A stretch of 34,584 bases of DNA from Streptosporangiaceae bacterium (GCA_030045175.1 JASIBM010000434.1:1-34584), one strand, 5' to 3'. Counted from the first letter of the stretch, positions 8,601 to 33,623 are shown. The notes: generated by a model not told the origin, from the letters alone. A program made the numbers and translations.

Positions 8601-8781
8601 CAGCGTCGGCCTGGTCACCGGTGACACGGTCAACGACCTGCTGGCGTTCGCGCTCGACCCGAACGTGCTCATCCAGGAGAGCAAGGTGGCGACCTGCCAG
8701 ATCGTGAGTGGCCGGCGACCGCGCGGCCCGGCCCTGCTCGACCTGGTGGCCCGCTACCGGCAGGAGGCTGGTCTGCAGTGA
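5674..8781 (+). CDS. Selenocysteine-containing formate dehydrogenase, alpha (molybdopterin) subunit, read through UGA at 6253-6255
   Basis: ORFs 5674..6255 and 6343..8781 are in the same frame (669 nt = 223 codons apart). Across the UGA the translation is ENQARI-U-HSATVPGLGTSFGRGGATTFPRDLINSDCVVICGSNMAECHPVAFQW, matching the U-H-S active site of FDH. N-terminal CPYCAVGCGQ [4Fe-4S] motif. Confidence 0.95.
6253..6292 (+). promoter_or_regulatory. Bacterial SECIS-like element directing Sec insertion
   Basis: UGA at 6253-6255, then hairpin GTTCCC(6268-6273)-GGTCT(6274-6278)-GGGAAC(6279-6284), a perfect 6-bp stem with the GGUCU apical loop known from E. coli fdhF/fdnG SECIS, at the expected distance. 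Confidence 0.92.
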
Positions 8782-15335: not shown

Positions 15336-15361
15336 AGCGCGTGCGGTCAGCGCGTGCGGTC
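15336..15361. repeat. 13-bp perfect tandem duplication (AGCGCGTGCGGTC x2) in the intergenic/convergent gap
   Basis: 15336-15348 and 15349-15361 identical. Confidence 0.85.
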
Positions 15362-16022: not shown

Positions 16023-16135
16023 GCGGCCCCCTTTCCTTCGCGTCAACCGTTTAAGCCGAGGTTACCGGTTGACATCGGCAAGAGCCAAAGAATAGCATTT
16101 CAACCACCAAACGTTGTTACGGAGGTTGACAACGC

Positions 16136-16921: not shown

Positions 16922-17229
16922 TGATGACTGGAAACTGGGTCGCGGTCGGTGCCGTGGCGGTGATCTGCGCCCTCATGCGCGTGAGCGCTCCGCTGCTGCT
17001 CGGCCAGCGGCAAGCCCCTCGTCTCATCCACGCGCTCGAGCTCGCGGTCCCGGCACTGCTGGCCGCGCTGATCGTCACTGAGACGTTCGGCGCGGGGCAG
17101 CGGCTTGTCATCGACCCGAGGCTGGCCGGCGTGGTGGCGGGCGGGCTGGTCGCGCTGGGCAGAAAGCCGCTCTGGCTGACGCTCGTGGTGGCGGTCGGCA
17201 CGACCGCGCTGGTCCGAGCGCTGATTTAA
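16921..17229 (+). CDS. azlD: AzlD domain-containing branched-chain amino acid transport protein
   Basis: 102 aa, four hydrophobic segments, ALMRVSAPLLLGQRQ...ALELAVPALLAALIV; ATGATG start overlaps the azlC stop. Confidence 0.85.
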   Translation: MMTGNWVAVGAVAVICALMRVSAPLLLGQRQAPRLIHALELAVPALLAALIVTETFGAGQRLVIDPRLAGVVAGGLVALGRKPLWLTLVVAVGTTALVRALI

Positions 17230-18515
17230 GGTGCCGTGGCGCTGGCCAAGCCGCGGTCGAACCTGTCCATCAGCAGGTCCGCCTCTGTTGCGGTGAGGAT
17301 CAGCGGCGGGGTCACGAGCACGAAGCTGCTGGAGATGGAGACCAGCAAGCCGGCGGCGCGCAGGCACTGCTTGACGTGGTGCATTGCCTGAGCGGCCAGC
17401 GGCTGGCCGTCACCGTCGGCCAGCCCCACGGCGATCATCAGGCCGGGGCCGTGCACGCTGCGAACGGCCGAGTTTCCGATCCGGCCGGCGAACGCGGACG
17501 TGAGCTGCGCGCCCCGGTCGGCGACATTCGCCAGGACGCTGCCGTCGGCGAGCTCGTCGAGCACGGCCATTGCCGCCGCGACGGCGAGCGGAAGGCCATC
17601 GGCGGTAGACCCATGCGGGAAGACGCCCGCGGGTACCCCGAGCGCCCGCTCAAGCACGTCGTGGGTGACCGCGATCGCCGACAGCGCCGCGTAGCCGGAG
17701 GTCAGGGCCTTGCTCAGCAGCAGCATGTCGGGTTCTAGGCCGAGCTGGCCCGCGACCGTCAGGCTGCCGGTGCGGCCGAAGCCAGTGGTCACCTCGTCCA
17801 GGATGAAGTGGATGTCCGCCGCCTGGCACAGGTCTTGCACCTCGCGCAGGTAGCCGGGCGCGAGCTGCTGCACATCCGTGCCGAGGACTGGCTCCATGAT
17901 CACGGCGGACAGCCGGCCGGCGCCGATGCGGTCGACCGCTGACCGGAACGCGCCGATGTCACCGGCCGGAACGTGCCGCACGCCCGGGCACAGCGGGGCC
18001 AGCACCTCGTGCAACGGCCGCTCGCCGGTCAGGCTGCCAGCCAGGCCGGCGATGCCGTGGTAGCCGTCCCACAGCGCGAGCACCTCGGAGCGCTCCGGGT
18101 GCCCCTCGCCGATCCGGATGAACCGTGACAGCAGGACCGCTCCCTCTGCCGCTTGCGCGCCGGTCGTGCACAGGCGTACGTGGCGCAGGTTCGAAGGCAA
18201 CACCCCGGCCAGGCGGCTGGCGTAATCAAGCGCGATCTGGGTGGGCTGGTCATGCCTGATGATCTGGGCCGCAGGCAGCTCCTGAAGCTGCCTGGCGATG
18301 GCCGTCATGATCCGCTGGTTGCTGTAGCCAAGCGCGGTGCTCCACAGCGCGGAGCGCGCATCGAGGTACTCGCGCCCGAGTACGTCCCTGACGAAGCAGC
18401 CGCTGCCAGACACGAGCGCCAGGTCCGCCCAGGCGCCGTCGTCGTCAGCGGTCAGGGCGCTGAACCACAATGCTGGGTGCTTGCACGTGCAACCAGTGAA
18501 TTCCGCTGCTGTCAT
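17226..18515 (-). CDS. Class III PLP-dependent aminotransferase
   Basis: 429 aa; DGYHGIAGLAGSLTG, VIMEPVLGTDVQQLAPGYLREVQDLC, FILDEVTTGFGRTGSL, LLSKALTSGYAALSAIAV (PLP Lys). Confidence 0.9.
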   Translation of the reverse strand: MTAAEFTGCTCKHPALWFSALTADDDGAWADLALVSGSGCFVRDVLGREYLDARSALWSTALGYSNQRIMTAIARQLQELPAAQIIRHDQPTQIALDYASRLAGVLPSNLRHVRLCTTGAQAAEGAVLLSRFIRIGEGHPERSEVLALWDGYHGIAGLAGSLTGERPLHEVLAPLCPGVRHVPAGDIGAFRSAVDRIGAGRLSAVIMEPVLGTDVQQLAPGYLREVQDLCQAADIHFILDEVTTGFGRTGSLTVAGQLGLEPDMLLLSKALTSGYAALSAIAVTHDVLERALGVPAGVFPHGSTADGLPLAVAAAMAVLDELADGSVLANVADRGAQLTSAFAGRIGNSAVRSVHGPGLMIAVGLADGDGQPLAAQAMHHVKQCLRAAGLLVSISSSFVLVTPPLILTATEADLLMDRFDRGLASATAP

Positions 18516-18535
18516 GGAACAGCCTCCTAGTCCGG

Positions 18536-19564
18536 CTAGCTGGGTTGGAGGATCGGCAGGGTGGCCGGGGGGCCGTAGCCGTGAGCTTGCACGAGGCAGG
18601 CCGCCTGCGCCTCGGCCTCGGTCAGCTGATCGAATGTCGCCCTGATCAGCGCTGGCCGCGCGCGGCCGCGCGCGGCCGACTCGAGCGCGAAGTGCAGGGC
18701 CATGGGCAGGTCACGCCACAGGTCGTGGAGTTGCCACACGAGCCGCCTCGCTGGCGAGTCGAGCGGGAGCTGGCCGAGATGGGCGTACCTGAATGCGTGA
18801 TGCCTCGCGCTGGCCCACATGTCATCGAAGAACCGTTCCCGGCCAGGGACCTGGTGGTCAGGTCCGGCCCACAGCCCGCCGAGGAACCGCAGCGCCGCCG
18901 CGGGCTCAGCGAGCCATCCGGGCGGCAGCGCCGTGGCCGCGCCGGGAACCGTGGCGCGGCCGAGCCACTGATAATGATCATCAGGCGGTAGCGGCACCGG
19001 GAGTCCGAACACGTATTCCTTGCGAAGCCGCAATTCCGGGCGCAGCGGCGACGGCGGGGTCATCGCCTCGGTCAGTTCGGTGGTGGTAAGCCATCCCGTG
19101 AACGGCTGCTGGCTTCCGCCGGGCAGCAGCGCCTGGAACGGGTCCTCGACCTGCCATCGCCCGCCGCGGTGCTCGCGCACCAGCAGGAAATGCGGCGCGC
19201 TGGCCTCGCCGCTGGCCGGTGACCAGGCCATCGAGCCCGTGTAGGTGACCGCGAGAACCCCGAGGCCCGCCCGCATCTCCGCGTCCAGGCCGGCCGGAAC
19301 GACAGCCGGGTCGGCCGTGCCGAGGTACCCGAGGCGGGAGCCGTCCGCCAGGTCGTTGAGCGCGAGCCAGTGATGGGAGAACGCGACGATCCCGCCTGGC
19401 AGGCCGGGTCGCACCGCCAGGCGCACGGAACGGGCGACACGGGCCAGCGGATCGGGGCAGCAGCCCTCGAGGTATCGCGCCAGCGCCGCCGTGTAGCAGC
19501 TCAGCTGCCCTGGCCCGATCTCGGCGGCCGCGGGCGCGGCGGGATCGCTGGCTGGCGGGATCAC
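18536..19564 (-). CDS. BtrH N-terminal-like cysteine acyltransferase candidate
   Basis: 342 aa; LSCYTAALARYLEG (candidate Cys), SAPHFLLVREHRGGRWQVEDPF (candidate His and Asp), typical order for BtrH-like/papain-fold proteins; GTGA overlap with the upstream ACP gene. Confidence 0.65.
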   Translation of the reverse strand: MIPPASDPAAPAAAEIGPGQLSCYTAALARYLEGCCPDPLARVARSVRLAVRPGLPGGIVAFSHHWLALNDLADGSRLGYLGTADPAVVPAGLDAEMRAGLGVLAVTYTGSMAWSPASGEASAPHFLLVREHRGGRWQVEDPFQALLPGGSQQPFTGWLTTTELTEAMTPPSPLRPELRLRKEYVFGLPVPLPPDDHYQWLGRATVPGAATALPPGWLAEPAAALRFLGGLWAGPDHQVPGRERFFDDMWASARHHAFRYAHLGQLPLDSPARRLVWQLHDLWRDLPMALHFALESAARGRARPALIRATFDQLTEAEAQAACLVQAHGYGPPATLPILQPS

Positions 19565-19857
19565 GGTGGTGATTCCCTCGCGGTCTCGGCGGCGCGGGCG
19601 ATGAGCTCGGCGAGATCGCCAACGGTATGAATCGGCCCGCCAGAGAACAGGTCGTCGGGGAGCATCACGCCGAGCTCATCTTCCAGGCGGATCAGCATGC
19701 CAAGCAGCCCGAGCGAGGTCATGTGCAGCAAGGCGCCGTTGAGCGGCTCTGCTAGCGCTACGGTTTCCGGGTCGATCGAGAGCCGCGACTCCCTGACCAC
19801 CATCTTGCGGACCACGGCAAGCACGGCGTCGGGTACTGGCCTAGTCGCGTTCGGCAC
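19561..19857 (-). CDS. Acyl carrier protein (phosphopantetheine attachment domain)
   Basis: VPDAVLAVVRKMVVRESRL...LLHMTSLGLLGMLIRLEDELGVMLPDDLFSGGPIHTVGDLAELI; Ser in a TSL variant of the DSL motif. GTG start at 19857 overlapping the upstream stop. Confidence 0.75.
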   Translation of the reverse strand: MPNATRPVPDAVLAVVRKMVVRESRLSIDPETVALAEPLNGALLHMTSLGLLGMLIRLEDELGVMLPDDLFSGGPIHTVGDLAELIARAAETARESPP

Positions 19858-21169
19858 CGCTGTAGATCCCTTCGTCACGCGCGCGGGCCGGGTCGGCGCC
19901 GAACCTGACGGCGCCATGGCCGTCGACCCGCCACCCATAGGTCATCAGTGCCCCCGCGGTCACCGGCCCCCGCACGTGCAGGCGGCCAGTGCTGATCACG
20001 ATCTCACTGCCCAGGCCGAGCGTCGGGCCGTCGTGCAGCCGGACAGAGCCGTTCACGATCACCGCCGCCGCGTCCACCTTGCGGCAGAATTCATCGGCGA
20101 CGTCTTCGTCCTCGGTGACGATGCCCTCGGTGTGCCCGGTTCCGTACCTGCCGACGTGCGTGATGGCCGCGCTAGGCCCAGGCACGCTGGCTACCGCGAG
20201 CGTGCGGGAGAGGAACTCACGGCCAAGGTCCGCCTCGGTCAGCGGCTCCACGGTCAGCCGCTCGGTAAGCGTTGCGGGCAGGCGCTCGAGCAGGTCGGCC
20301 GAGACCCGCAGGACCAGGGAGCCCATGCCGGGGTCGGTAGCGCGGGCGGCTAGCATCTCCAGGAATTCGCCCGAGATCGCGGCGTCGAGCAGGACCATCT
20401 CCAGCGCCGTGCAGCCTTCCGGCTCCGGCAGCTTGCCGTCAAGCACCAGGCGCACCGCTAGCGGAAGGTCGGCGGCGGCGTGCACGTACATGTGGTTGAC
20501 CCCGCCCCCGCCGACGATCATCGGGATGCGGGACAGCGAGCGGCACGCGTCGAGCAGGCTGGGGCTGCCGCGAGGTATGAGCACGTCGATGGCGTCGTCG
20601 CGGCGCAGCAGCTCGCGCAGCGCGGCCCGGTCCAGGTCGGGGAGCACCTGCACCAAGCCAGGCGGCAGGCCAGCCGTGGCGAGCGCCTCGCCGAGCACGC
20701 CGGCCAGCGCGGCATTGGTACGGGCGATCTCGGCGCCACCGCGCAGCAGCACCGCGTTGCCCACGCAGGCCGGCAGCAAGGCCCCGTCGATGGTGACCGT
20801 CGGCCGCGCCTCATAGATCATCAGCAGGACGCCGAGCGGCCTGGCCACGCGCCGGGCCACGGTACCTCCGGCACCGTGATGAACAGGCCAGGAACCGCCG
20901 AGCATGGCCAGCTCGTTGACCACTCGCTCGGCCAGCATTGCCATCGCGTCACGGTGCGCCTCGGTCAGGCTCATCCGGTGCAGCCAAGGCTCGGGCAGGC
21001 CGCGCTCTTGCCCCGCTCGCAGGTCCTGCGAGTTCGCCGCGGCGATCTGCGGCCAGCGGCTCGCCAAGGCGACGGCCAGCGACCGGGCGAATGCCGGGTA
21101 AGCCGGATCGCCGATGGCCGGAGCCTGCGCCAGGGCGGCACGTGCGGTCCGAAGGCAGTGATCGATCAT
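19841..21169 (-). CDS. ProA-like (glutamate-5-semialdehyde dehydrogenase family) aldehyde dehydrogenase/reductase
   Basis: 442 aa; LAAANSQDLRAGQERGLPE, PLGVLLMIYEARPTVTIDGALLPACVGNAVLLRGG, DVLIPRGSPSLLDACR, candidate catalytic Cys in EGCTALEMVLLD, C-terminal GLGSEIVISTGRLHVRGPVTAGALMTYGWRVDGHGAVR. Confidence 0.88.
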   Translation of the reverse strand: MIDHCLRTARAALAQAPAIGDPAYPAFARSLAVALASRWPQIAAANSQDLRAGQERGLPEPWLHRMSLTEAHRDAMAMLAERVVNELAMLGGSWPVHHGAGGTVARRVARPLGVLLMIYEARPTVTIDGALLPACVGNAVLLRGGAEIARTNAALAGVLGEALATAGLPPGLVQVLPDLDRAALRELLRRDDAIDVLIPRGSPSLLDACRSLSRIPMIVGGGGVNHMYVHAAADLPLAVRLVLDGKLPEPEGCTALEMVLLDAAISGEFLEMLAARATDPGMGSLVLRVSADLLERLPATLTERLTVEPLTEADLGREFLSRTLAVASVPGPSAAITHVGRYGTGHTEGIVTEDEDVADEFCRKVDAAAVIVNGSVRLHDGPTLGLGSEIVISTGRLHVRGPVTAGALMTYGWRVDGHGAVRFGADPARARDEGIYSGAERD

Positions 21170-21204
21170 TACCTCCGTCCCTCCGCCCGGGATGCCGCCC
21201 GCTG

Positions 21205-21234
21205 GCCAGCAGACCGCTCAAGCCAGCAGACCGC
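21205..21234. repeat. 13-bp direct repeat GCCAGCAGACCGC (17-bp period) in the same divergent region
   Basis: 21205-21217 and 21222-21234 identical. Confidence 0.85.
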
Positions 21235-21243
21235 GCCCGGCGG

Positions 21244-21267
21244 AACCTGCCAAGCAATTGGCAGGTT
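21244..21267. promoter_or_regulatory. Perfect palindrome AACCTGCCAA-GCAA-TTGGCAGGTT in a divergent intergenic region (candidate operator)
   Basis: 10-bp perfect arms, 4-nt spacer, between divergent genes 19841..21169(-) and 21400..22416(+). Confidence 0.75.
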
Positions 21268-21399
21268 GATGTCTGCGCGCCGATGGCAGCAAGTGGCCGC
21301 CTCGTAGTCGCACCGCGACCAGCGACGTACGTTCGGTTTCCAGCCACGTATGGTCAGTACTCAGCCGCGGGGTCGTTATCCCCGGAGAGGGTGACACTG

Positions 21400-22416
21400 G
21401 TGCCCAGTGTGCCGCCGCACGGCGTCCACGCCGCGTGCTCCCAGTTCCTGCCGATGGTGGCCGGGGCTTACCTGGACTGCGTCTCTGACGACCTGGCACT
21501 ACTGCTCGCCACGCGGGGCGTCGCCGACGTCGAGGCGGTGTTCGGCCAGGACTGGCGGTTCGACGTCCTCGACGATGACGGGCCGCTGCCCCGCCCAGGC
21601 CTGCCGCCAGCCGACCAGGACGACCTGATCGCCCGGCGCACCGGCTGGCGGCCACGCTGGCGGCCGGCCACCTCGCCCGAGCGCGACGCGCAGGACTGGT
21701 GCGCCGAGCTGAGCGCCGGCAATCCCGTGCTTGTCGTGGGCGACGCCTACCACCTGCCGTGGCTGCCGTACGCGGGCCGTGAGCACATGGCGCACGGTTT
21801 CGTGATCGACGGGCTGTCCTGGGACGACGGCGTCCTGACGGCGCATATCGCCGATCCCTACGACAACGTCACCCAATGGGGCCACGCGCAGCCCATGACC
21901 ACCCGCCAGGCGCTTGGCCCGCTCGCCCCCGCGCTCGCGGATGGCCGCTGGGCCGTCCTGGTCGCGGCCGGCCAGCCGCGCCAAGCCAATCCGGGCGAGC
22001 AGGCGGCCGCGAACGCCGCCGCCATCACCAGGGCCGCGGCAGACGGCAGTTACCAGCGCTTCATCGACGCGCACGAGGAGTCCGGCGTCGAGGAGATGGC
22101 GAGCCTGGCCCTCGCGACCTGGCTGCTGGCTCGCAACCGCGCCCTGCATGCCCGCTGGCTGGCCGGGCTGCCCGCCTGGCAGCGTCCCGACTGGCTCGCC
22201 GAGCGCTTCGAAGCCGAGATCAGCGGGGGCTGGCGCCGCGCCATGGAGATGACCTACATCGCGCTGCGCCGGCTGCGGGGCGGCCATGCGGCCCCGCCGG
22301 CCGCGATCCGATCGGTCCGGCAGGTAGCTGCCGCCGAGGAGAGCCTCGCGGCCTCGTTGCTTTCCAGCGCGCAAGGCTGGCCCGTCGCCAGGAGGCCAGC
22401 CGATGCACGCCAGTGA
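21400..22416 (+). CDS. Second BtrH-like / papain-fold cysteine acyltransferase candidate with extra C-terminal helical domain
   Basis: Start GTG 21400 after GGAGAGG; VPPHGVHAACSQFLPMVAGAYL (Cys), GREHMAHGFVIDGLSWDDG (His), AHIADPYDNVTQW (Asp); overlaps the following adenylation gene. Confidence 0.6.
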   Translation: MPSVPPHGVHAACSQFLPMVAGAYLDCVSDDLALLLATRGVADVEAVFGQDWRFDVLDDDGPLPRPGLPPADQDDLIARRTGWRPRWRPATSPERDAQDWCAELSAGNPVLVVGDAYHLPWLPYAGREHMAHGFVIDGLSWDDGVLTAHIADPYDNVTQWGHAQPMTTRQALGPLAPALADGRWAVLVAAGQPRQANPGEQAAANAAAITRAAADGSYQRFIDAHEESGVEEMASLALATWLLARNRALHARWLAGLPAWQRPDWLAERFEAEISGGWRRAMEMTYIALRRLRGGHAAPPAAIRSVRQVAAAEESLAASLLSSAQGWPVARRPADARQ

Positions 22417-23944
22417 CGCCATACTCCTGGCGGCAGGCAGGCAGCCAGATGCCATCGCCTTGACCGGGGCCGGCCAGCGGCCTGTTAGCTACCGTGACCT
22501 TGCTCAGGGCATGACCGGCCTGGCCGCCGGGCTGGCCGGCCGCACCAGCCAGGGGGCACGGATCGGCATCGTCAGCAGGAAGTCACCCGAGACGGTCATC
22601 GCGATGCTCGCCTGCCTGCACGCCGGCCGGTGCTTCGTCATGATCGACCCGGCGCTGCCGCCGCATCGCCGCGACTTCATCGTCACCCAGCCGGCCTGCG
22701 AGATCGTGCTCGCTGACCCGGCGACCGCCGGCCTGAGCTGGCCGGTGCCCGCCATCGACCTGGCGGGCGAGGTCGCGCGCGTCGCCCGCCAGGGCCAGGG
22801 CGCCGCGGCGGGCCGGCCGGCGGCACGCCCCGACGACGAGGCTTACGTGCTCTATACCTCCGGCTCGACCGGCGAGCCGAAGGGCGTGGTGATCACCCGT
22901 CGCAACATGCGGGCGTTCCTGCGGTGGGCGGCCGCGAGATTTCCGTTGCGCAGCGGCGACCAGGTGGCCGTGCACGCGCCGCTCCACTTCGACCTGCCGG
23001 TGTATGACCTGTACGCGGGCCTGGCGGGCGGCGCGACGCTGCACCTGGTGCCTGAGCGCGTGGCCCTGTTCCCGCAAGGGCTTTACCGGTTCCTTGCGCA
23101 GGGCGCGATCACCCACCTGTACGCGGTGCCCTCGGCGCTCGGTGCCCTGGCCGACCGCTCCACGCTCGGGCAGCACGGCCTGCCGGCGATGCGCCAGGTC
23201 CTGTATGCGGGCGAGGAGTTCCGGCCCAGGCCACTGGCCACGCTGATGGCCGCCCTGCCCCAGGTCAGGGTCAGCAACTTGTACGGCCCGATCGAGACCA
23301 ACGTGGTGACCTCCTGGACGCTGCGGCGACCGCCCGGTGACGGTGAGCGCGTCCCGCTTGGCCAGCCCATCAGCGGCGTGACGCTCGCCTTGCGCGACGA
23401 CAGCGGCAAGGCGTCAGAGCGCGCGGCGATGGAAGGCGAAGTGCTTGTCGCGGGAGATTGCGTCACCCCCGGCTACCTGGCCAGGCCCGATCTGACCTCG
23501 CAGAGCATGATCACGCTTACCACGGAGAGCGGGACCCGGCGCTTCTACCGCACCGGTGACTTCGCCGTCCGAGATGGCCACGGGGTGCTCCACTTGCTCG
23601 GCCGGCGCGACGGCCTGGTGAAGACGCGCGGCTACCGGGTGGAAATCGGCGAGATCGAGGCCGCGATCGGCTGGCATCCGGCGGTGAGCGAGGTAGCCAT
23701 CGTGGCGGAGCCAGATCCGGAGCTGACCAACCGGTTGCACGCGCTCGTCGTCCCGGCCGACCCCCAGCGACCCTGCCACGGCCTCGCCGACGCGGTGATC
23801 GCCCATTGCCGTCAGCGGCTGCCCGGCTACATGGTGCCCGGCCGGGTGCACGTTCTCGCTGAACTGCCGCGCACAGGCACAGGCAAGATCGCCCGCCAGC
23901 GACTGCCCGGCCTGATCGCCGGCCCGGCAGGAGAACCGCCATGA
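22403..23944 (+). CDS. Stand-alone amino acid adenylation enzyme (AMP-binding)
   Basis: VLYTSGSTGEPKGVVITRRNMRAF (A3), HFDLPVYDLYAGLAGG (A4, Asp retained), SNLYGPIETNVV (A5), YRTGDFAVRDGHGVLHLLGRRDGLVKTRGYRVEIGEIEAAI (A7-A8), GTGKIARQRL (A10). No condensation domain. Confidence 0.93.
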   Translation: MHASDAILLAAGRQPDAIALTGAGQRPVSYRDLAQGMTGLAAGLAGRTSQGARIGIVSRKSPETVIAMLACLHAGRCFVMIDPALPPHRRDFIVTQPACEIVLADPATAGLSWPVPAIDLAGEVARVARQGQGAAAGRPAARPDDEAYVLYTSGSTGEPKGVVITRRNMRAFLRWAAARFPLRSGDQVAVHAPLHFDLPVYDLYAGLAGGATLHLVPERVALFPQGLYRFLAQGAITHLYAVPSALGALADRSTLGQHGLPAMRQVLYAGEEFRPRPLATLMAALPQVRVSNLYGPIETNVVTSWTLRRPPGDGERVPLGQPISGVTLALRDDSGKASERAAMEGEVLVAGDCVTPGYLARPDLTSQSMITLTTESGTRRFYRTGDFAVRDGHGVLHLLGRRDGLVKTRGYRVEIGEIEAAIGWHPAVSEVAIVAEPDPELTNRLHALVVPADPQRPCHGLADAVIAHCRQRLPGYMVPGRVHVLAELPRTGTGKIARQRLPGLIAGPAGEPP

Positions 23945-24216
23945 GCGGCGAGCCGGCCACGATGATCGAAGGCCTGGTCGTCCACGTCGTCGCCGATGCG
24001 CTCGGTGTCCAGCCCCAGGAGATCGTGACGGCGCCCACGCTCTTCGACGTTCCTGGCTTCGACTCGCTGACGGTGCTGACCATCTTGTCCCGCCTCGAGG
24101 CCGAACTCGGCGCCGAGATACCGCCGGACGCGATCGTGCCTGAGGCGTTCGAGTCGCTGCCCGCCCTGATCGCGTTGTTCCAGGGGGCCGCTTCGTGGCC
24201 AGGAGGGCAGGCATGA
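23941..24216 (+). CDS. Acyl/peptidyl carrier protein
   Basis: 91 aa; TLFDVPGFDSLTVLTILSRLEAELGAEIPPD with canonical DSL. Confidence 0.92.
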   Translation: MSGEPATMIEGLVVHVVADALGVQPQEIVTAPTLFDVPGFDSLTVLTILSRLEAELGAEIPPDAIVPEAFESLPALIALFQGAASWPGGQA

Positions 24217-25745
24217 TCCCCACGCTCCTGCATGACCTGCTTGATCATCGCGCCGCGGCAAGGCCCCAGGCGCCGGCCCTGACGCACGGGGACCGGACGT
24301 GGAGCTACGGTGAGCTGGCCCGCTGGTCCGCCGCCGTCGCGGGGTGGCTACGCGAGCAGCGCGTCGGCCGGGGTGACCGGGTGGTGATTCTCGGCCACAA
24401 CAACTGCCAGGCCGTTCCGCTCATCTTCGCCGCCGCGCGGATCGGCGCGGTATTCGTCCCAGTCAGCGACCAGGCCCCGGCACGACAGCTTGCGCATGTG
24501 GTGGCCGACAGCGGAGCCAGGCTCGTCGTGGCCACGCCCGGCGGCGCCGGCGCCGCAGGGCGGCTGGCAGGCGTGGCGGTGCGGACCGTCGCCGAGCTGC
24601 CGGAACCAGCCGGCCCGGCCACGCCTGGCGAGGCGCCGTGCCTGTCCATCGACCCGGTCTGCCTGATCTACACCTCGGGGAGCACGGCGATGCCCAAGGC
24701 CGTCGTGAGCACCCACAGGCAGGTGCTCTTCGCTGTCCAGGCGATCCAGAGCCAGCTGGCGTACCGCGACGATGACGTGGTGCTTTGCTGCCTGCCGCTG
24801 TCCTTCGACTACGGCTTGTACCAGATCTTCCTGGCGTGCGCGGCCGGAGCGCGGCTGGTCCTCGGCGATGACTCGGACGCGGGCCCGGCGCTGCTGCGAC
24901 GGCTGGTGCACGAGGACGTCTCGGTGCTGCCGCTCGTGCCCAGCCTGGCCGTGACGCTGTGCCGCCTGGCCGGCCGCGGTGGCCAGGCCCCCGCGCGGCT
25001 GCGGATGGTCACGAACACCGGCGCCGAGCTCACCCCGGCCATGTGCCGGCGGCTCCGGGCAGCGATTCCTGGCCTCGCCGTGGTCCCCATGTTCGGGCTG
25101 ACCGAGTGCAAGCGGGTCTCGATCGGCGAGCCGAACCTGGACCTGCGCCGGCCAGGGTCGGTTGGCCGGGCGCTGCCGGACACCGAGGTCATCGTGGCAG
25201 GCGAGGACGGCAAGCCGGCCGCGCCAGGAACGGTGGGCGAGCTGCTCGTGCGCGGGCCGCACGTCATGGCCGGCTACTGGAACGCCCCCGGGCTGACCGC
25301 GGCCCGGTTCCGCCGCGACAGCCTGGGCCAGCCGGTGCTGCACACCGGCGACCGGTGCCGCCTCGATGCGGACGGGTATCTCTACTTCGCCGGCCGCGGC
25401 GACGACATCTACAAGCAGGGCGGGATCAGGGTCAGCGCCGTCGAGGTGGAGTCGGCGGCGCTGGAGATCGGTGGCGTGGAGCTCGCCGCCGCGCTGCCCC
25501 CGAACGGCCGGTTCGGGTCACGGCTAGCGGTCACCGGCGACCTGACGCCGCACCAGCTGCTGACCGGGCTGCGAGATCGGCTCGGGGCGCAGAAGCTGCC
25601 AGACGAGTGCCGGGTCATGGCCGCCCTGCCGCTCGCCGTCAACGGCAAGATCGACCGCCGGGCGCTTGACGAGCAATGGGCGCAGGCCGTCGCCGGCCCC
25701 CCTGGCGTGGCGCTACAGGGCGAGCCCGCCGGAGCCAGGCCGTGA
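24213..25745 (+). CDS. Second AMP-dependent acyl/amino acid ligase
   Basis: LIYTSGSTAMPKAVVSTHRQVLFAV, LPLSFDYGLYQIFLACAAGARLVLGDD, VVPMFGLTECKRVSIGEPN, HTGDRCRLDADGYLYFAGRGDDIYKQGGIRVSAVEVE, NGKIDRRAL; ATGA overlap with the ACP. Confidence 0.92.
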   Translation: MIPTLLHDLLDHRAAARPQAPALTHGDRTWSYGELARWSAAVAGWLREQRVGRGDRVVILGHNNCQAVPLIFAAARIGAVFVPVSDQAPARQLAHVVADSGARLVVATPGGAGAAGRLAGVAVRTVAELPEPAGPATPGEAPCLSIDPVCLIYTSGSTAMPKAVVSTHRQVLFAVQAIQSQLAYRDDDVVLCCLPLSFDYGLYQIFLACAAGARLVLGDDSDAGPALLRRLVHEDVSVLPLVPSLAVTLCRLAGRGGQAPARLRMVTNTGAELTPAMCRRLRAAIPGLAVVPMFGLTECKRVSIGEPNLDLRRPGSVGRALPDTEVIVAGEDGKPAAPGTVGELLVRGPHVMAGYWNAPGLTAARFRRDSLGQPVLHTGDRCRLDADGYLYFAGRGDDIYKQGGIRVSAVEVESAALEIGGVELAAALPPNGRFGSRLAVTGDLTPHQLLTGLRDRLGAQKLPDECRVMAALPLAVNGKIDRRALDEQWAQAVAGPPGVALQGEPAGARP

Positions 25746-26989
25746 TCGCCGAAGAGGTCGCAGCGAAGTTCGGGACGCCTGTCTACGTCTATGACCTGCA
25801 GGCCGTGCGGGACGCCCACGCCGACCTGCGATCCGCCCTGCCGGCGCAGGCCGGCCTCTACTACTCGCTCAAGGCGAACCCGCACCCGGAGGTCGCGGCC
25901 GAGCTCGCCAGGCTTGGCTGCCGCGCCGAGGTGTCGTCGCAGGGAGAGATCGACACCGCCATCGGCGCCGGATTCCAGGCGGCTCGCATGCTGCTGACCG
26001 GGCCGGGCAAGACCGCTGACACGATCGCGCACGCGATGCGCAGCGGGGTGCGGGCGTTCTCGGTGGAGTCCCCCGCGGACCTTGCCAGGATCGGCAGCCT
26101 GGCGGCTGCGCACGGCACGGCTGCCCGCTGCCTGCTGCGCGTGAACGCGGACCAGCCCGTGCCCGGGCTCGGCCTGGCCATGACGGGCACCGCATCGCAG
26201 TTCGGCGCTGATGCCTCCTGGGTGAGCAGGCAGCCGGAGCTGTTCAGGCAAGCCGGCGCCGCCCGGGTGACCGGCCTGCACCTGTACATGGGAACCAACA
26301 TCGAGGACGAGGCGACCCTGCTGGCGCAGTTCCGGGTGGCGGTCGGCATCGCCGCCAGCCTGGCCGGGCCGTTTGGCGGGTTCGCGGAGGTGGACCTGGG
26401 CGGGGGCTTCGGGACTCCCTACGCCAGGCGCGGCGGCCGGCCACTATTCGGTGGCCTGGCGCGCCAGCTTACCGAGCTGCTCGACGGTCACCTGCCGGGC
26501 TGGCGCCAGCGCCGGCCACTGATCACCTTCGAGTCTGGCCGCTACCTGGTCGGCAGCGCTGGCTCGCTGATCTGCCGCGTCGTGGACACGAAGGTGTCCA
26601 AGGGGGTGCGGTTCGCCGTGCTTGACGCCGGGGTGAACCATCTCGGCGGGATGATGGGACTGCGCCGCATCCCGCCCATCGTCCCTGACCTCCTCACGCT
26701 GCCCGGCGATGGCAATGGCGCCCGCGTGCCCACCACGGTCACCGGGCCGCTGTGCACGCCGCTCGACACCCTCGCCCGCGACGCCCAGCTGCCGCCGCTG
26801 GCCGCCGGGCAGCTGGTCGCCATCCCGAACGTGGGTGCCTATGGCCTGACCGCGAGCCTGATGGCCTTCCTCGGCCACCCGGCCCCGGCAGAAGTGGTGG
26901 TGAACGGCGACAAGGTCGCCTCGGCCTCGCAGATCCAGCTCACCCGGACTCACCTGCTAGCCCGCGAGCCTGCTCGCTCGCGCGCATGA
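25742..26989 (+). CDS. Fold-type III PLP decarboxylase (LysA/BtrK/VinO-like; possibly acting on an ACP-tethered amino acid)
   Basis: AEEVAAKFGTPVYVYDLQAVRDA, LYYSLKANPHPEVAAELARLGCRAEVSSQGEID (PLP Lys), FAEVDLGGGFGTPY, TFESGRYLVGSAG, VTGPLCTPLDTLA; GTGA overlap with the upstream ligase. Confidence 0.9.
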   Translation: MIAEEVAAKFGTPVYVYDLQAVRDAHADLRSALPAQAGLYYSLKANPHPEVAAELARLGCRAEVSSQGEIDTAIGAGFQAARMLLTGPGKTADTIAHAMRSGVRAFSVESPADLARIGSLAAAHGTAARCLLRVNADQPVPGLGLAMTGTASQFGADASWVSRQPELFRQAGAARVTGLHLYMGTNIEDEATLLAQFRVAVGIAASLAGPFGGFAEVDLGGGFGTPYARRGGRPLFGGLARQLTELLDGHLPGWRQRRPLITFESGRYLVGSAGSLICRVVDTKVSKGVRFAVLDAGVNHLGGMMGLRRIPPIVPDLLTLPGDGNGARVPTTVTGPLCTPLDTLARDAQLPPLAAGQLVAIPNVGAYGLTASLMAFLGHPAPAEVVVNGDKVASASQIQLTRTHLLAREPARSRA

Positions 26990-27021
26990 CCTCCGATGCC
27001 GCCCGAGCGGAAGGGAACACC

Positions 27022-27294
27022 ATGAGCAGCGTTGCTCTCGATCCGGACTTCGAGAAGGTGCTCAGGCGTCGCCTGACATACCTGGCTCCAGAAGCGCCGC
27101 TGTTGCCGGACGTACCGCTGAAGAGCCTTGGCCTCAACTCGCTGCTGGCCGTCGAGCTCATCTTCGACATCGAAGACGAGCTGAACGTGGCGCTGCCAGA
27201 CGAGGCGATGACCGCGCAGGTATTCGAGACGGCCGCGAGCCTATGGTCGGCCGTGAGCGACGCACGGACGCAAGCGGCGCTGGGGGCGCGATGA
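27022..27294 (+). CDS. Acyl carrier protein
   Basis: MSSVALDPDFEKVLRRRLTYLAPEAPLLPDVPLKSLGLNSLLAVELIFDIEDELNVALPDEAMTAQVFETAASL; NSL variant Ser motif; GGAAGGG RBS upstream of ATG 27022. Confidence 0.9.
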   Translation: MSSVALDPDFEKVLRRRLTYLAPEAPLLPDVPLKSLGLNSLLAVELIFDIEDELNVALPDEAMTAQVFETAASLWSAVSDARTQAALGAR

Positions 27295-28487
27295 CCGCCG
27301 GGGCGAGCTCCCGGTCACCGGCCGGCCCCGAGCACGCGGACCTGGCACAGCGCCTGGCGGACGTCGCGGCGGTCATCAGGGAGGAAGCGGCCGTGATCGA
27401 CAGGGATGCCACGTTCCCGGAAAATGGCATGTCCGCGATCCGCAAGCAGGGCCTGCTCGGGCTGCTCGTGCCTGCCGAGTACGGCGGGCTCGGCGGCTGG
27501 CTGCCCGAATTCGTCGATGCCGCCGTCGTCCTGGCTGGCGAGTGCCTGTCCACGGCGCTGATCTGGGCGATGCACTGCCAGCAGGCGGCCACCATCGCCA
27601 GGCACGCCACCCCGCGGCTACGCCAGGACCTGCTGCCCCGCATCGCCGGGGGCGAGGTCTACATCGCGTCGGTCACCAGCGAGAAGGGCAAGGGCGGCCA
27701 CCTGCTGACCGCCCAGGCGCCGCTGCGGCGCGCGGGCGGCATGCTGGAGATCGACAGGGACGCTCCGATCGTCACCGGCGGTCAGCACGCCGACGGGTTC
27801 CTGATCACCATGCGCGACGACGTCTCGGCGCCAGCCAGCGCGGTCTCCCTGGTCTACGCCGACCGCGCGGAACTGACCGTGTCGGCGGCTGGATCCTGGG
27901 ATCCGCTTGGCATGCGGGGCACCCACAGCGTCGGCTTGCGGATCAACGGCCAGGTAGCCGGCCACAACCTGGTCGGCCTGCCCGGTGAGTTCCGCGAGGT
28001 CGCTGTGGCCACCTTCGCGCCAGTAGGTCACATCGGATGGGCCGCGTGCTGGCTTGGCGCCGCGCGCGCCGCCTTGCACCGCGTCATCGAGCTGCTGCGC
28101 GCCCCGGCCGGCCGGCGCCAGTTCGACCTGCGCTCGGAGCTGCTGCGGACCAGGCTTGCCCGCGCCAGGCTTGACCTCGACACGGTGGCAGCGATGATCG
28201 CGCAGTGCGTACGGGACGTGTGCGCCGCGCCGGACCTGGAGGCGATACCGGTCCAGCTGCGGCTGAACGCGCTGAAGGTGCTGGCCGCCGAGCGTTGCTT
28301 CGCCGTCGCTGACCTGCTCATCGAGGTCACCGGCCTGCGGCATGGCTACCTGCGCGACGCGCCGCTCGGCCTGGAGCGGGTGTTCCGTGACCTTCGCTCA
28401 GCCAGCCTGAATTACGCGAACGACCGGCTGTTGCTGGCAAACGGTGCGCTCGCCCTGCTCGACCGGGGAGTGACCCTTGCCTACTGA
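27291..28487 (+). CDS. Acyl-CoA dehydrogenase-fold flavoprotein (dehydrogenase or two-component monooxygenase)
   Basis: AAVIDRDATFPENGMSAIRKQGLLGLLVPAEYGGLGGWLPEFVDAAVVLAGECLSTALIWAMH..., GSWDPLGMRGTHSVGLRINGQV, LERVFRDLRSASLNYANDRLLLANGAL; ATGA overlap with the ACP. Confidence 0.85.
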   Translation: MTAGASSRSPAGPEHADLAQRLADVAAVIREEAAVIDRDATFPENGMSAIRKQGLLGLLVPAEYGGLGGWLPEFVDAAVVLAGECLSTALIWAMHCQQAATIARHATPRLRQDLLPRIAGGEVYIASVTSEKGKGGHLLTAQAPLRRAGGMLEIDRDAPIVTGGQHADGFLITMRDDVSAPASAVSLVYADRAELTVSAAGSWDPLGMRGTHSVGLRINGQVAGHNLVGLPGEFREVAVATFAPVGHIGWAACWLGAARAALHRVIELLRAPAGRRQFDLRSELLRTRLARARLDLDTVAAMIAQCVRDVCAAPDLEAIPVQLRLNALKVLAAERCFAVADLLIEVTGLRHGYLRDAPLGLERVFRDLRSASLNYANDRLLLANGALALLDRGVTLAY

Positions 28488-29901
28488 AGAGCTGCTCAGC
28501 CACATTGAACCCGCCGCAGGCGCGGCCGTCGCGGTGCCTGCCGCGTGGTACAACCTGCTCGCCGACGCCGGCTTCGAGCTGCCGCCTGACGTGGCCAGCG
28601 GGGGCGAAGGCCCGAGCCTGCGGCCTCAGGTTCCGCTTAGCATCATCCGGCAGGAGCTATCCACCCAGCGCTGGATTCCCATCCCGGAGGAAGTCAGGGC
28701 TCGCTTCGCCGCCTGGCGCCCGACTCCGTTGCGCCGGGCCGAAGCGCTCGAGCGCGCGCTGGGCACCAGGGCCCGCATCTACTACAAGTACGAGGGGGGA
28801 AACCTCACCGGCAGCCACAAGCTGAACACAGCGGTGGCCCAGGCGTACTACTACCGGGCCGCGGGAGCCAAGCGCCTGGCCGTGGCCACGGGCGCCGGGC
28901 AGTGGGGCACCGCCGTGGCGGCCGCGTGCCAGATGTTCGGCCTGGCCTGCCAGGTGTACATGGTCCGGGCGAGCCTGCTTGCCAAGCCGCACCGCAAGAC
29001 CATGATGGAACTGCTCGGGGCGACCGTCACGGCGAGCCCGAGCGATGACACCGAGGTCGGGCGCAGGTTCCTGGCCGACGGCGCCGATGGCGGCACGTTG
29101 TCGATCGCCCTGGCCGAGGCCCTGGAGGAGACGCGTGATCCGGGCACCCGGTTTTGCGCGGGCAGCGGGGAAACGTACGCGCTGCTGCACCAGACGGTCA
29201 TCGGCCTGGAAGCGGCGGCCCAGCTGGCGGCCATCGACGAGGGCGTGCGGCCGGATGTCGTGATCGCCGCGCTCGGGGCGGGAAGCAACTTCGGCGGCAT
29301 CGCATTCCCGTTCCTGCGCGCCAGGCTCGCCGCGCGGGAGGTTCCTGGGGCCAGGCAAGCACCGGGGCAGCCGCTGCGGTGCCTGGCCGCTGAGCCTGCG
29401 GCGTGCCCGAAGCTGACCAGGGGCCGCTACGTCTACGACCACACCGACAGCTCGGAGCGGACGCCCTTGCAGAAGATGTACACGCTTGGCTATCGCTTCA
29501 CGCCCACCCCGATGCATGCCGGCGGGCTTCGCTATCACGGCACCGCCAAGATCGTCAGCGCGCTGTACGCGCGCGGCCTCATCGAGGCCGCCGCCTACCA
29601 GCAGCGCGAGGTGTTCGAGTCGGCGGTCCTCTTCGCCAAGTGCGAGGGCATCTTGCCCGCCCCGGAGAGCGCGCACGCGGTCCACGGGGCTATCGCGGAA
29701 GCCGCGCGGGCGGACGCTGACGGCACCGCCCCGCGCATCCTGTTCTCGCTGAGCGGGCATGGCATGTTCGACCTGGAGGCCTACCGCTCTTATCTGTGCG
29801 GTGACATGCCGGACGTGATCATTCCAGCCGCTGAGATCGAGGAATCCCTGGCCAGGCTCCCCGCGCAGCCGGAGCCTGCCGCAGCCGAGAGAACCGGGTG
29901 A
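28477..29901 (+). CDS. TrpB-like (TrpB2-type) PLP-dependent beta-replacement/beta-elimination enzyme
   Basis: RPTPLRRAEALERALGTRARIYYKYEGGNLTGSHKLNTAVAQAYYYRAAGAKRLAVATGAGQWGTAVAAACQMFGL (PLP Lys in SHKLN), ALGAGSNFGGIAFPFL. TTG start at 28477. No trpA seen. Confidence 0.88.
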   Translation: MPTEELLSHIEPAAGAAVAVPAAWYNLLADAGFELPPDVASGGEGPSLRPQVPLSIIRQELSTQRWIPIPEEVRARFAAWRPTPLRRAEALERALGTRARIYYKYEGGNLTGSHKLNTAVAQAYYYRAAGAKRLAVATGAGQWGTAVAAACQMFGLACQVYMVRASLLAKPHRKTMMELLGATVTASPSDDTEVGRRFLADGADGGTLSIALAEALEETRDPGTRFCAGSGETYALLHQTVIGLEAAAQLAAIDEGVRPDVVIAALGAGSNFGGIAFPFLRARLAAREVPGARQAPGQPLRCLAAEPAACPKLTRGRYVYDHTDSSERTPLQKMYTLGYRFTPTPMHAGGLRYHGTAKIVSALYARGLIEAAAYQQREVFESAVLFAKCEGILPAPESAHAVHGAIAEAARADADGTAPRILFSLSGHGMFDLEAYRSYLCGDMPDVIIPAAEIEESLARLPAQPEPAAAERTG

Positions 29902-30497
29902 ATCAGGTGAATTACCCAGCAACGGCGCTGGGCTGGGCCAGCGCTGGCGAGCCGGAAGGACCGACCGCGTTGCGCCTGGACGCTCGCGCGCAAGACGGGA
30001 CGGAGCCGGCCAGCGCCGAGGAGTTCCGTGAGCTGATGAGGCACTGGCCGACCGGCGTGTGCGTGATCACCACGCAGGACGCGGATGGCCCGGCTGGCTG
30101 CACGGTCAGCTCCCTCATGAGCGTGTCCCTGAGCCCTCCGCTGCTCGTGATCGCCCTGGCGACCGGCAGCGTGACGCTGGCCGCGATCAGCCGGGCCGGC
30201 GCGTTCGGCGTCAACGTGCTTGGCGAGGAGCAGGGCGACCTGGGGCAGCGGTTCGCCAGCGGCGAGCACCGCGACCGGTTCAACGGGGTGAAGTGCCGGT
30301 ATCAGGGCCGGCTTCCGTTGCTGCCAGAGGTGGTCGCGTGCGTCGTGTGCACCGTCTGGGACACCGCGCCGTGCGCGGACCACGTGCTGGTCATCGGCAA
30401 GCCGGTATGGCACGCGGCGCGACATGACCTGTCCCCGCTGCTCCGCTTCCGCAGCGGCTACCGGCACCTCGCCGAGCGACCTACTGAGTGCGCTTGA
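29898..30497 (+). CDS. Flavin reductase family protein (HpaC/HsaB-like)
   Basis: EEFRELMRHWPTGVCVITTQDADGPAGCTVSSLMSVSLSPPLLVIALATGSVTLAAISRAGAFGVNVLGEEQGDLGQRFAS...DHVLVIGKP; GTGA overlap with the TrpB-like gene. Confidence 0.92.
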   Translation: MNQVNYPATALGWASAGEPEGPTALRLDARAQDGTEPASAEEFRELMRHWPTGVCVITTQDADGPAGCTVSSLMSVSLSPPLLVIALATGSVTLAAISRAGAFGVNVLGEEQGDLGQRFASGEHRDRFNGVKCRYQGRLPLLPEVVACVVCTVWDTAPCADHVLVIGKPVWHAARHDLSPLLRFRSGYRHLAERPTECA

Positions 30498-31626: not shown

Positions 31627-31635
31627 GGGGGGCTC

Positions 31636-32697
31636 CTATCTGATGCCCGTGCGCTGGCAGGCGTTGTCGAACGCTTGCGCGCAGCGCTGCCAGGACGGTG
31701 GCTGATGAGCCAGGCGGAGCAGCCAGGGCAGCAGCTGCGCGGAGAAATCAGTGCTCGCCTCGACCGGAAGGAGGGCGGGCAAGTTGTCGATGGCGATGAT
31801 CTCCAGGGCGGGCGGGCCCTCGGCCAGGCGGCGAACCGGGCGCTGCCACGTCGTGACGCTGTCGTAGATCGGCAGCATGTTGAACGGCGATGCCACGTCG
31901 CAGGTCACGTCGGAGATGACCGCCAGCCGGCGCGCCGGGTCGGCAACATCGCTGACGGTCAGGAAGGGCGTGGCCGGGCGGGTGGTCAGCACCGCGTTCA
32001 CCAAGATGTCGTGTCCGAGCAGGGCGCGAAGATCGCGCACCCGAGTTTCCGCGATGTCCCATCGCGTTGGCGTGGCGCCAGCCGTCGCGAGCGCCGCGCA
32101 CGCGCCACGCCCTGACCGGCCCAGGGCGCCGAGGACGAGCGGCCGGGTGACCTCGCGGCCTGCGGACCTGCGCAGCGCCTCGTCCAGGTCCGACCTGGAG
32201 CAGGGCTGGAGCGGCGCGGATAGCAGGCCCGCCCGGTGCAGCACGGCCAGGGCAGCGCCTGCGTAACCGGCCCAGTAGCCGAAGGCGGCAAGCCTGCGGC
32301 CGTCGTCGTCGGTCAGGTACTCCATGTCAAGCAAGGCCCCCCGGCCAGCGGCGAAACGGCTCAGCAGCAGGCGGCCGTCCTGCTGGCCCTTGTAGGCGTG
32401 GCCAAAGAAGACATGGCGATGGCGCAGCGCGAACGGCTTGGCCGGGAGTTCCTTCAGCCCCAGCACATAGAAGTCGTCATCGGCGTCGGCCCACGAGCCC
32501 GCCCGGGCGATCGCGGCGCCGGCCGCGGCGTAGCCGGCGATGGGGAAGGCCCGGTGCGCGGACTCCTCCACGGTCAGCGCTATCCCCGCGCCGATGAGCA
32601 CGCTCGCGTCCGCAGGCACGATGGGAACCCGGGTTTCAGCGCGCCGCGTTTCACTGCGAATCCATAGCCGCAGGCCACTGGTCGCCGGCGCGGTCAC
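31636..32697 (-). CDS. Lys1-type saccharopine dehydrogenase-like protein (alanine dehydrogenase/PNT fold)
   Basis: LRLWIRSETRRAETRVPIVPADASVLIGAGIALTVEESAHRAFP, YVLGLKELPAKPFALRHRHVFFGHAYKGQQDGRLLLSRFAAGRGALLDMEYLTDDDGRRLAAFGYWAGYAG, VISDVTCDVASPFNMLPIYDSVTTWQ. Confidence 0.85.
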   Translation of the reverse strand: MTAPATSGLRLWIRSETRRAETRVPIVPADASVLIGAGIALTVEESAHRAFPIAGYAAAGAAIARAGSWADADDDFYVLGLKELPAKPFALRHRHVFFGHAYKGQQDGRLLLSRFAAGRGALLDMEYLTDDDGRRLAAFGYWAGYAGAALAVLHRAGLLSAPLQPCSRSDLDEALRRSAGREVTRPLVLGALGRSGRGACAALATAGATPTRWDIAETRVRDLRALLGHDILVNAVLTTRPATPFLTVSDVADPARRLAVISDVTCDVASPFNMLPIYDSVTTWQRPVRRLAEGPPALEIIAIDNLPALLPVEASTDFSAQLLPWLLRLAHQPPSWQRCAQAFDNACQRTGIR

Positions 32698-33623
32698 AGC
32701 CAGCCTCGCTTGGCGACGAGCACGCCGGCCTGGAATCTGCTGTCCGCCTCTATGTGCCGCAGCAGCACGGCGACGCGGCGCCGGACCGTCCGCACCGAGA
32801 TGCCGAGCTTGTGGGCCACCGTCTCGTCGGTCAGCCCGTCACCGAGTAGCTGGAGCAGGACGCGCTCCTCGCAGCCCATCTCGGTGACGGGATCTGCCGC
32901 GGCTGGGTCGGCGAGATACGGGGCGACATCCTTGGCCTCGGCCCACCAGGCATCGAACAGCAAGTACAGGACGCTGACGAGAATCGACTCGCCGACGAGG
33001 ACCGCATGCCGCGGTCCACCGTCGGCCGACCGGGTCAGCACGGCGGAGCGACCGTCGCACAGGAACATCTGGACTGTCGGCGCGGGGGTCGTGCGTACCT
33101 TGGCGCCCGCCTCAAGCTGCCTGGCCACCTTCTGGCGCAGGACGGGCTGGATCAGCAGCGCGGGCGGGTAGATGACGCGTAAATCGATATCGCGCTCCAG
33201 CGCCCTGAGCTTTGCGGACATAGTAAATTCTGTGCTGTTACGGGCAGTATGGTCGGTTTCCAGGTGGATCAGTGCCACATTGGATTTCGCGTTACTGATC
33301 TGCTCGAGCACGACGAGCGGGACAGCGTGCGGCTGCAGTATCGGCCGGACGGGCGCCATGGCGGGCGGACTGGCCGCGAGCTCGCTCACCAGGCGGGCTG
33401 TCTCGTCCCACAGGGCCTTGAGCTGGCGGGTCCTGCGGGCATGCTCGAAGTCGAGCTCGCTGCGCAGCTGCTCGAACAGGGTGGCCGGGTCCGCCTGCGT
33501 CATCCGGCCGCAGGCCGGCCGATGTGCGTTATCGCCCGCCAGCGAGGCGGCGCTGTACGAAGGCAGCGGCGACTTGCCCACCGTATCGTCGTGGAGGTGC
33601 TTGCCCATCCCGTCACGCATCAA
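32694..33623 (-). CDS. LuxR-family transcriptional regulator (C-terminal HTH)
   Basis: C-terminus EERVLLQLLGDGLTDETVAHKLGISVRTVRRRVAVLLRHIEADSRFQAGVLVAKRGWL; N-terminal TrmB/PLD-like sensor region (ALERDIDLRVIYPPALL). Stop overlaps the start of the Lys1-like gene. Confidence 0.85.
   Translation of the reverse strand: MMRDGMGKHLHDDTVGKSPLPSYSAASLAGDNAHRPACGRMTQADPATLFEQLRSELDFEHARRTRQLKALWDETARLVSELAASPPAMAPVRPILQPHAVPLVVLEQISNAKSNVALIHLETDHTARNSTEFTMSAKLRALERDIDLRVIYPPALLIQPVLRQKVARQLEAGAKVRTTPAPTVQMFLCDGRSAVLTRSADGGPRHAVLVGESILVSVLYLLFDAWWAEAKDVAPYLADPAAADPVTEMGCEERVLLQLLGDGLTDETVAHKLGISVRTVRRRVAVLLRHIEADSRFQAGVLVAKRGWL

Follow-up and report, generated by a model that had tools for sequence, protein, structure and literature searches.

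A predicted dehydro-beta-alanine peptide pathway of stand-alone carrier-protein enzymes in a Streptosporangiaceae bacterium

Dehydro-beta-alanine (Dba) has been called extremely rare among natural products (PMC10880069). For bolagladin, a VinN-like ligase (BolO), an acyl carrier protein (ACP; BolC), a BtrK-like decarboxylase (BolN) and a flavoprotein of the acyl-CoA dehydrogenase (ACAD) type (BolQ) were assigned to Dba formation, and deletion of bolQ led to dihydro compounds (PMC7756342). The Dba gene set of AFC-BC11 comprises the VinN-type AfcQ together with AfcK, AfcP and AfcE; AfcQ activates L-aspartate in vitro, and AfcE is a BolQ homologue that the authors expect to desaturate an N-acylated substrate (PMC12186527). 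Amide bonds are also formed by cysteine enzymes acting on carrier proteins: CcbD and LmbD use a Cys-His-Glu triad and a ping-pong mechanism to build the amide of lincosamides from an acyl group on a carrier (PMC12945683), and in closthioamide assembly, where beta-alanine is held on a carrier, CtaG is the proposed peptidyl transferase and the reductase CtaK and aminotransferase CtaB are proposed to supply the amine (PMC6772006). Here we analysed a stretch of 34,584 bases (the window), which is the whole contig G000:C595 of an 82%-complete actinomycete genome bin (5.36 Mb, 681 contigs) from an uncultured Streptosporangiaceae bacterium. Its gene cluster is best read, with a probability of roughly 0.6 for the first four steps, as a peptide pathway that works on carrier proteins without a synthetase and has Dba at its centre.

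The codon-position bias of real genes extends across 17,226-33,623, where the GC content of third codon positions is mostly 0.85-0.90 and all frames listed below are open. Enzyme classes were assigned via Pfam and NCBIfam, and the catalytic residues are intact, namely the pyridoxal phosphate (PLP) lysines, the A10 lysines of the adenylating enzymes, the carrier serines and the cysteine of the ProA-like protein (Cys253). A preliminary description of this DNA had listed three ACPs, two stand-alone adenylating enzymes, a decarboxylase, a class III aminotransferase, a ProA-like protein, an ACAD-fold protein, a flavin reductase and a TrpB-like enzyme, all of which are present and coding. It had also called the locus free of polyketide synthase (PKS) and non-ribosomal peptide synthetase (NRPS) genes, and no condensation domain, ketosynthase or multidomain NRPS or PKS protein was found by Pfam among the window proteins scanned.

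The four components of the Bol/Afc Dba module (VinN-like ligase, ACP, BtrK-like decarboxylase and ACAD) are clustered in the window. The ligase A2 (24195..25745, +; AMP-binding) has VinN (3wvn) as its nearest solved relative in a PDB search (E 5.7e-111). Compared with VinN, the amine-binding Asp of the A4 motif and the TECKR motif with its alpha-carboxylate-binding Arg are kept, and most A2 relatives are alike in this respect; the residues characteristic of VinN (Asp230, Ser299/Arg331) are thus found in A2, except that Thr stands at the Ser299 position by alignment. The PLP decarboxylase (25676..26989, +; Orn/DAP decarboxylase family) scores 193 bits for BtrK against 140 bits for the best LysA, has BtrK structures 7ru7 and 2j66 as best PDB matches, and carries the PLP Lys in an SLKAN motif as well as the active-site Cys. 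ACP3 (27022..27294, +; PF00550) belongs to a gene that adjoins either the ACAD or the decarboxylase gene in most relatives, and the ACAD-fold flavoprotein (27243..28487, +; ACAD domains) has the family motif RDLRSAxLNYxNDR. An ACAD profile search gave 80 loci in named genomes, and in the full comparison set of 84 sequences, which includes the window and a second cluster of the same genome, A2 and the decarboxylase stand beside the ACAD in 50 (window included). In two Burkholderia replicons with an ACAD of 34-35% identity, no A2 or decarboxylase neighbours were seen within 15 kb. By analogy with the bolagladin and AFC-BC11 gene sets, we read this core as converting aspartate to beta-alanyl-ACP3 and then to N-acyl-dehydro-beta-alanyl-ACP3.

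The N-acyl group would be delivered by a second set of genes. BtrH2 (21454..22416, +; exact start codon uncertain) matches the Pfam domain BtrH_N (PF14399) with 34.3 bits at a cut-off of 29.7; BtrH (18536..19564, -) has no such match itself, but the domain is recognised in 14 of the 32 proteins of its alignment. C23, H125 and D141 are invariant in that 32-member alignment, and C9, H111/H114 and D134 are conserved in BtrH2. AlphaFold models of the two proteins (pLDDT, the predicted local distance difference test, 91.5 for BtrH and 92.1 for BtrH2) match the folds of AziU3, CcbD and CtaG with E values of 6e-10 to 8e-4, so both proteins combine the Cys-His-Asp/Glu residues with the papain-like family fold, and we annotate them as predicted papain-like, carrier-dependent acyl or peptidyl transferases. 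The two BtrH-like candidates of the preliminary description are thereby borne out. A1 (22403..23944, +; AMP-binding; TIGR01733 324 bits, above cut-off) is a stand-alone amino-acid adenylating enzyme whose pocket motifs do not allow the substrate to be read with confidence, and ACP2 (23941..24216, +; PF00550) follows it. The order BtrH2-A1-ACP2 is kept in the related loci L043, L056 and L091, with A1 orthologues of 50-54% identity. Moreover, in 41 of 50 sequences from a similarity search, BtrH2 and a carrier domain form one fusion protein, and this supports a transfer of the aminoacyl group from ACP2 to beta-alanyl-ACP3.

In the proposed pathway, A2 would adenylate L-aspartate at its beta-carboxylate and load it onto ACP3, and the PLP enzyme would then remove the alpha-carboxylate to give beta-alanyl-ACP3. 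A1 would load an alpha-amino acid onto ACP2, from which the active-site Cys of BtrH2 would relay the aminoacyl group to the amine of beta-alanyl-ACP3, and the ACAD would desaturate the product to aminoacyl-dehydro-beta-alanyl-ACP3. The gene assignments, the conserved residues and the co-occurrence patterns are results of the present analysis, whereas these four steps, to which the above probability applies, are drawn from characterised relatives. The fifth and sixth steps come from comparative genomics and are much more tentative: on a second arm the ProA-like enzyme may reduce an acyl group bound to ACP1 to an aldehyde, which the class III aminotransferase (AT3) would turn into an amine, while an altered TrpB-like enzyme would make or modify the unit on this arm; finally, BtrH may move the Dba peptide from ACP3 onto the amine, releasing a small peptide for export by AzlCD. 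The general outline given previously, in which an ACP receives an amino acid that is decarboxylated in place and passed on by BtrH-like transferases, agrees with the VinN-type ligase and BtrK-type enzyme and is probably correct.

The window resembles the bolagladin and AFC-BC11 gene sets in its genes for Dba: a VinN-type ligase, a stand-alone ACP, a BtrK-like decarboxylase and an ACAD. However, those compounds are lipopeptides made with fatty-acyl ligases, KAS III-like transferases or NRPS, whereas N-acylation by an amino acid (A1, ACP2 and BtrH2) is proposed here, and ProA, the TrpB-like enzyme and the BtrH-type transferases are additional. Closthioamide assembly is likewise NRPS-independent, with carrier-bound beta-alanine, a papain-like peptidyl transferase and a proposed reductase and aminotransferase for the terminal amine; in contrast, neither a thioamide synthetase (CtaC) nor an ATP-grasp loader was seen in 17226-33623, the window has the aspartate route and the desaturation, and the TrpB-like enzyme is without counterpart in that system. 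CcbD and LmbD share the fold and the Cys-based, carrier-dependent amide formation, but the cluster in the window does not make an amino sugar to serve as acceptor, and two such enzymes are present instead of one. Butirosin assembly uses a BtrJ-type ligase and a luciferase-type BtrO and yields an aminoglycoside. Its system (BtrI/J/K/O/V/H) resembles the window in the decarboxylase, which is closest to BtrK, and in the BtrH_N domain, but the window has no BtrJ-type ligase, luciferase-type BtrO or aminoglycoside, and has an ACAD-fold protein and AMP-forming ligases. The VinN/VinL/VinM/VinO set of vicenistatin also consists of two adenylating enzymes, an ACP and a decarboxylase, and A2 is closest to VinN, which loads 3-methylaspartate via the side-chain carboxylate; the window lacks the PKS, glutamate mutase and VinK-type acyltransferase of that pathway. 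The parts are known, but the whole set did not turn up in the literature searched: NRPS-independent carrier-protein assembly would be built on a Dba module, and the arm of ProA, ACP1 and the TrpB-like enzyme is unexplained and the most interesting part.

Several observations weigh against the Dba assignment. A2 has the Thr mentioned above in place of VinN Ser299, and the ACAD has no catalytic Glu at either of the positions used in medium-chain acyl-CoA dehydrogenase (MCAD) and isovaleryl-CoA dehydrogenase (IVD), where the alignment gives Tyr and Ala. The monooxygenase TdsC is its top profile match, a flavin reductase (29898..30497, +; PF01613) is encoded directly downstream of the TrpB-like gene in the same gene row, and the likeness of the ACAD to BolQ and AfcE is drawn from gene-set descriptions. 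Some relatives are without A2 and the decarboxylase; a KamA-type protein, or no evident substitute, is found in their place, so the ACAD substrate would not always come from aspartate. Because both usual Glu residues are missing and the best match is a monooxygenase, hydroxylation stays as a rival: the ACAD-fold protein and the flavin reductase would form a two-component monooxygenase that hydroxylates a carrier-bound beta- or gamma-amino acid to an isoserine or 4-amino-2-hydroxybutyrate analogue, as BtrO and BtrV do with an unrelated fold. This butirosin-like oxidation was the one favoured in the preliminary description. Homologues of the flavin reductase occur in 31 of the 80 related loci, but in most loci the flanks examined (up to 10 kb) contain none, and the TdsC match is weak overall and about equal to those of true dehydrogenases. 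Since the nearest precedent for a VinN-like ligase, ACP, BtrK-like decarboxylase and ACAD together is Dba formation (PMC7756342), this gene set fits better and desaturation is more likely than hydroxylation; the sequence alone leaves the choice unsettled, and we regard hydroxylation as unlikely but worth keeping in mind.

The substrate and the fate of the product allow other variants. A2 could load L-glutamate via its gamma-carboxylate, giving 4-aminobutyryl-ACP3 and then a 4-aminocrotonyl unit, a variant favoured by the closeness of the decarboxylase to BtrK, whose substrate is glutamyl-ACP. However, the enzyme closest to A2 is VinN, which acts on 3-methylaspartate, and KamA-type (2,3-aminomutase-family) proteins in relatives that lack A2 and the decarboxylase would give beta-amino acids, which fits a beta-alanine-type substrate; loading of glutamate is therefore rather improbable. 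The VinN-like A2, the VinO/BtrK-like decarboxylase and the second adenylating enzyme would also suit a vicenistatin- or fluvirucin-type starter unit for a PKS encoded elsewhere. No PKS is present in the window, no macrolactam PKS stands beside these genes in the relatives examined in detail, and complete-looking relatives such as L043 and the Streptomyces californicus plasmid have stand-alone enzymes only, so that we give this possibility very little weight. Finally, a pair of saccharopine-dehydrogenase-like (Lys1/Lys9-like) genes (30481-31626 and 31636-32697, both -) adjoins the cluster, and it was previously counted into the pathway. If the pair took part, lysine would be converted to aminoadipate semialdehyde for use by ProA or AT3. 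The pair is found in none of the 80 ACAD-selected loci and is missing from the second cluster of the same genome, whereas it is conserved on its own in 11 other genomes of the class searched, mostly of one genus. These genes were ruled out as pathway members and placed outside the system, and a contribution from them is scarcely credible.

Beyond the Dba core, the ProA-like reductase (19841..21169, -; Aldedh/ProA) has the family fold and the nucleophilic Cys253; it scores above the NCBIfam cut-off for PRK00197 (342.7 bits; cut-off 289) and below that for TIGR00407, and a PDB search returned gamma-glutamyl phosphate reductases. No ProB-like kinase was seen in the cluster, and we infer a carrier-bound substrate for ProA. 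In the incomplete genome of the window, no ProA was found beyond the two cluster copies, neither of which passes the TIGR00407 cut-off. ACP1 (19561..19938, -; PF00550, TSL/NSL motif, start codon uncertain) overlaps the 3' end of the ProA gene, and the two genes adjoin in relatives. ProA is always accompanied by the TrpB-like (TrpB2) gene (29/29 loci), ACP1 scores in all 29, and TrpB2 is found without ProA in L072 and L111 only. A partner gene is also evident: a short-chain dehydrogenase/reductase (SDR) is present in 21 of these loci, AT3 (17226..18515, -; PF00202) in 4, i.e. the window and L087, L097 and L121 with orthologues of 45-47%, both in none and neither in 4. This exclusivity (Fisher p 0.003, relatedness of loci ignored) suggests that ProA yields an aldehyde that is then reduced or aminated, similar to what is proposed for CtaK and CtaB in closthioamide assembly, and it points to a route from carrier-bound acyl group via aldehyde to alcohol (SDR) or amine (AT3). 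Two points count against this arm, namely that ACP1 is without an obvious loader and that the statistic takes no account of relatedness.

The TrpB2-like PLP enzyme (28477..29901, +; PALP; PRK12391 560 bits) belongs to the TrpB2 fold family (6hul, E 4.9e-102) and keeps the PLP Lys (GSHK) and the TGAGQ loop. In tryptophan synthase, the Glu that precedes TGAGQ assists the attack of indole. This Glu is replaced by Gly or Ala in 30 of 30 cluster TrpB2 proteins (A137 in the window), whereas 30 of 30 ordinary TrpB2 proteins keep it in the motif TETGAGQWG, and the solved TrpB2 structures keep it as well. The pocket motif is changed as well, from GSVLNHV to GSGET-Y (GSGETY in the window), so that both alterations distinguish every cluster member examined from known TrpB2. 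In a tree read without a fixed root, a branch with 100% SH-aLRT (Shimodaira-Hasegawa-like approximate likelihood ratio test) support has all cluster proteins on the same side. A TrpB2 search of 395 genomes that were not selected by ACAD gave four matches at 666-782 bits, all four in these clusters; the remaining matches reach at most 523 bits, and all 27 with sequence fetched keep the Glu. The TrpB-like enzyme had been named before, but its lack of the Glu and its tie to ProA and ACP1 were not recognised as the most unusual feature of the cluster. One distinctly speculative explanation is a carrier-bound sequence not described so far, in which TrpB2 would couple an amino-acrylate with a nucleophile held on a carrier, perhaps Dba or another enamine, and the ProA-derived enzyme would release the resulting amino acid reductively, as an aldehyde that is then reduced or transaminated. 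As part of the same claim, the acidic residue would have moved within the pocket, the Glu before TGAGQ being lost and the Glu of GSGETY gained.

The cluster is a member of a broad actinomycete family and not a singleton. The nearest arrangement, BtrH2-A1-ACP2-A2-decarboxylase-ACP3-ACAD, occurs in Amycolatopsis sp. CA-126428 (ACAD 67%), Streptomyces litmocidini and a Streptosporangiaceae bin. The annotated S. californicus plasmid relative encodes a carrier protein, a BtrH2-carrier protein, A2, decarboxylase, ACP3, ACAD, a phosphopantetheinyl transferase, BtrH and A1, together with a flavin reductase, a diaminobutyrate-type aminotransferase and a LysE exporter, and the stretch shown is free of NRPS genes; a condensation-adenylation (C-A) NRPS protein is found in many relatives. 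The second cluster of the window's genome contains NRPS genes and is apparently split over L038 (G000:C304) and L028 (G000:C164), which we infer to be joined through a cut ACAD2 gene. KamA-family radical S-adenosylmethionine proteins were seen in clusters that lack A2 and decarboxylase (L097:7116-8432, this copy being below the KamA family cut-offs, and L121 near 6791-8443, where a class I/II aminotransferase is also encoded), and they suggest another source of beta-amino acid there. In L118 (Lentzea aerocolonigenes), FkbH-like and KAS III-like genes, recognised by eye, stand beside a related cluster, suggesting a polyketide-linked variant. L168, on a plasmid of the marine alphaproteobacterium Tritonibacter mobilis, has a BtrK-like decarboxylase joined to an ACAD annotation, a VinN-like ligase, KAS III-like proteins and a P450, and is perhaps another Dba-type pathway. 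In the literature searched, which did not extend to subscription journals, MIBiG or antiSMASH, we found no published cluster with the whole gene set and no named product. The earlier view of an undescribed pathway holds to this extent, but the cluster is not a lone one.

At the left end, an AzlC-like amino-acid exporter (16136..16921, +; PF03591) and an AzlD-like exporter subunit (16921..17229, +; PF05437) are probably cluster members, judged from AzlC homologues (46-52%) in the related loci L087, L109 and L119, the last also with AzlD, and the AzlC-like protein is the probable exporter of the product. A CGNR zinc-finger regulator (15360..16046, -; PF11706/PF07336) is perhaps also a member; CGNR proteins occur in L036, L101, L102, L109 and L119, with similarity confined to the CGNR domain. 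Since AzlC/AzlD and CGNR proteins recur in relatives and Lys1/Lys9 is absent, the cluster likely spans from about 15,360 or 16,136 to 30,497. The span of 17226-33623 given previously thus contains the core genes, but it took in the Lys1/Lys9-like genes at 30481-32697 and left out AzlC/AzlD and perhaps CGNR. An Rfam scan of the window gave zero matches, and a promoter scan gave a few consensus matches, which were not used. Further upstream, the gene for a formate dehydrogenase alpha subunit (5674-8781, +) has a single in-frame TGA (6253-6255, QARI-U-H), most likely encoding selenocysteine, with FdhD-like (4750-5619, -) and SelD-like (12397-13410, -) genes nearby. SelD genes about 70% identical to that of the window flank two related clusters (L087:16824-17798 and L107:20226-21092), which may reflect a shared insertion site or chance.

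If the Dba reading holds, the 50 of 84 sequences with the VinN-like, BtrK-like and ACAD set would represent a sizeable unexamined class of Dba peptides in actinomycetes, and some of these peptides would come entirely from simple stand-alone enzymes. Reconstituting such enzymes in vitro is simpler than reconstituting NRPS modules. The TrpB variant, which lacks the catalytic Glu in every cluster member examined and is linked to a carrier protein and a ProA-type reductase, offers a well-defined example, open to experimental test, of an enzyme of primary metabolism that has been recruited for chemistry on carriers, and if the proposed sequence of TrpB2 and ProA proves true, it would give access to non-proteinogenic amino acids by a new route.

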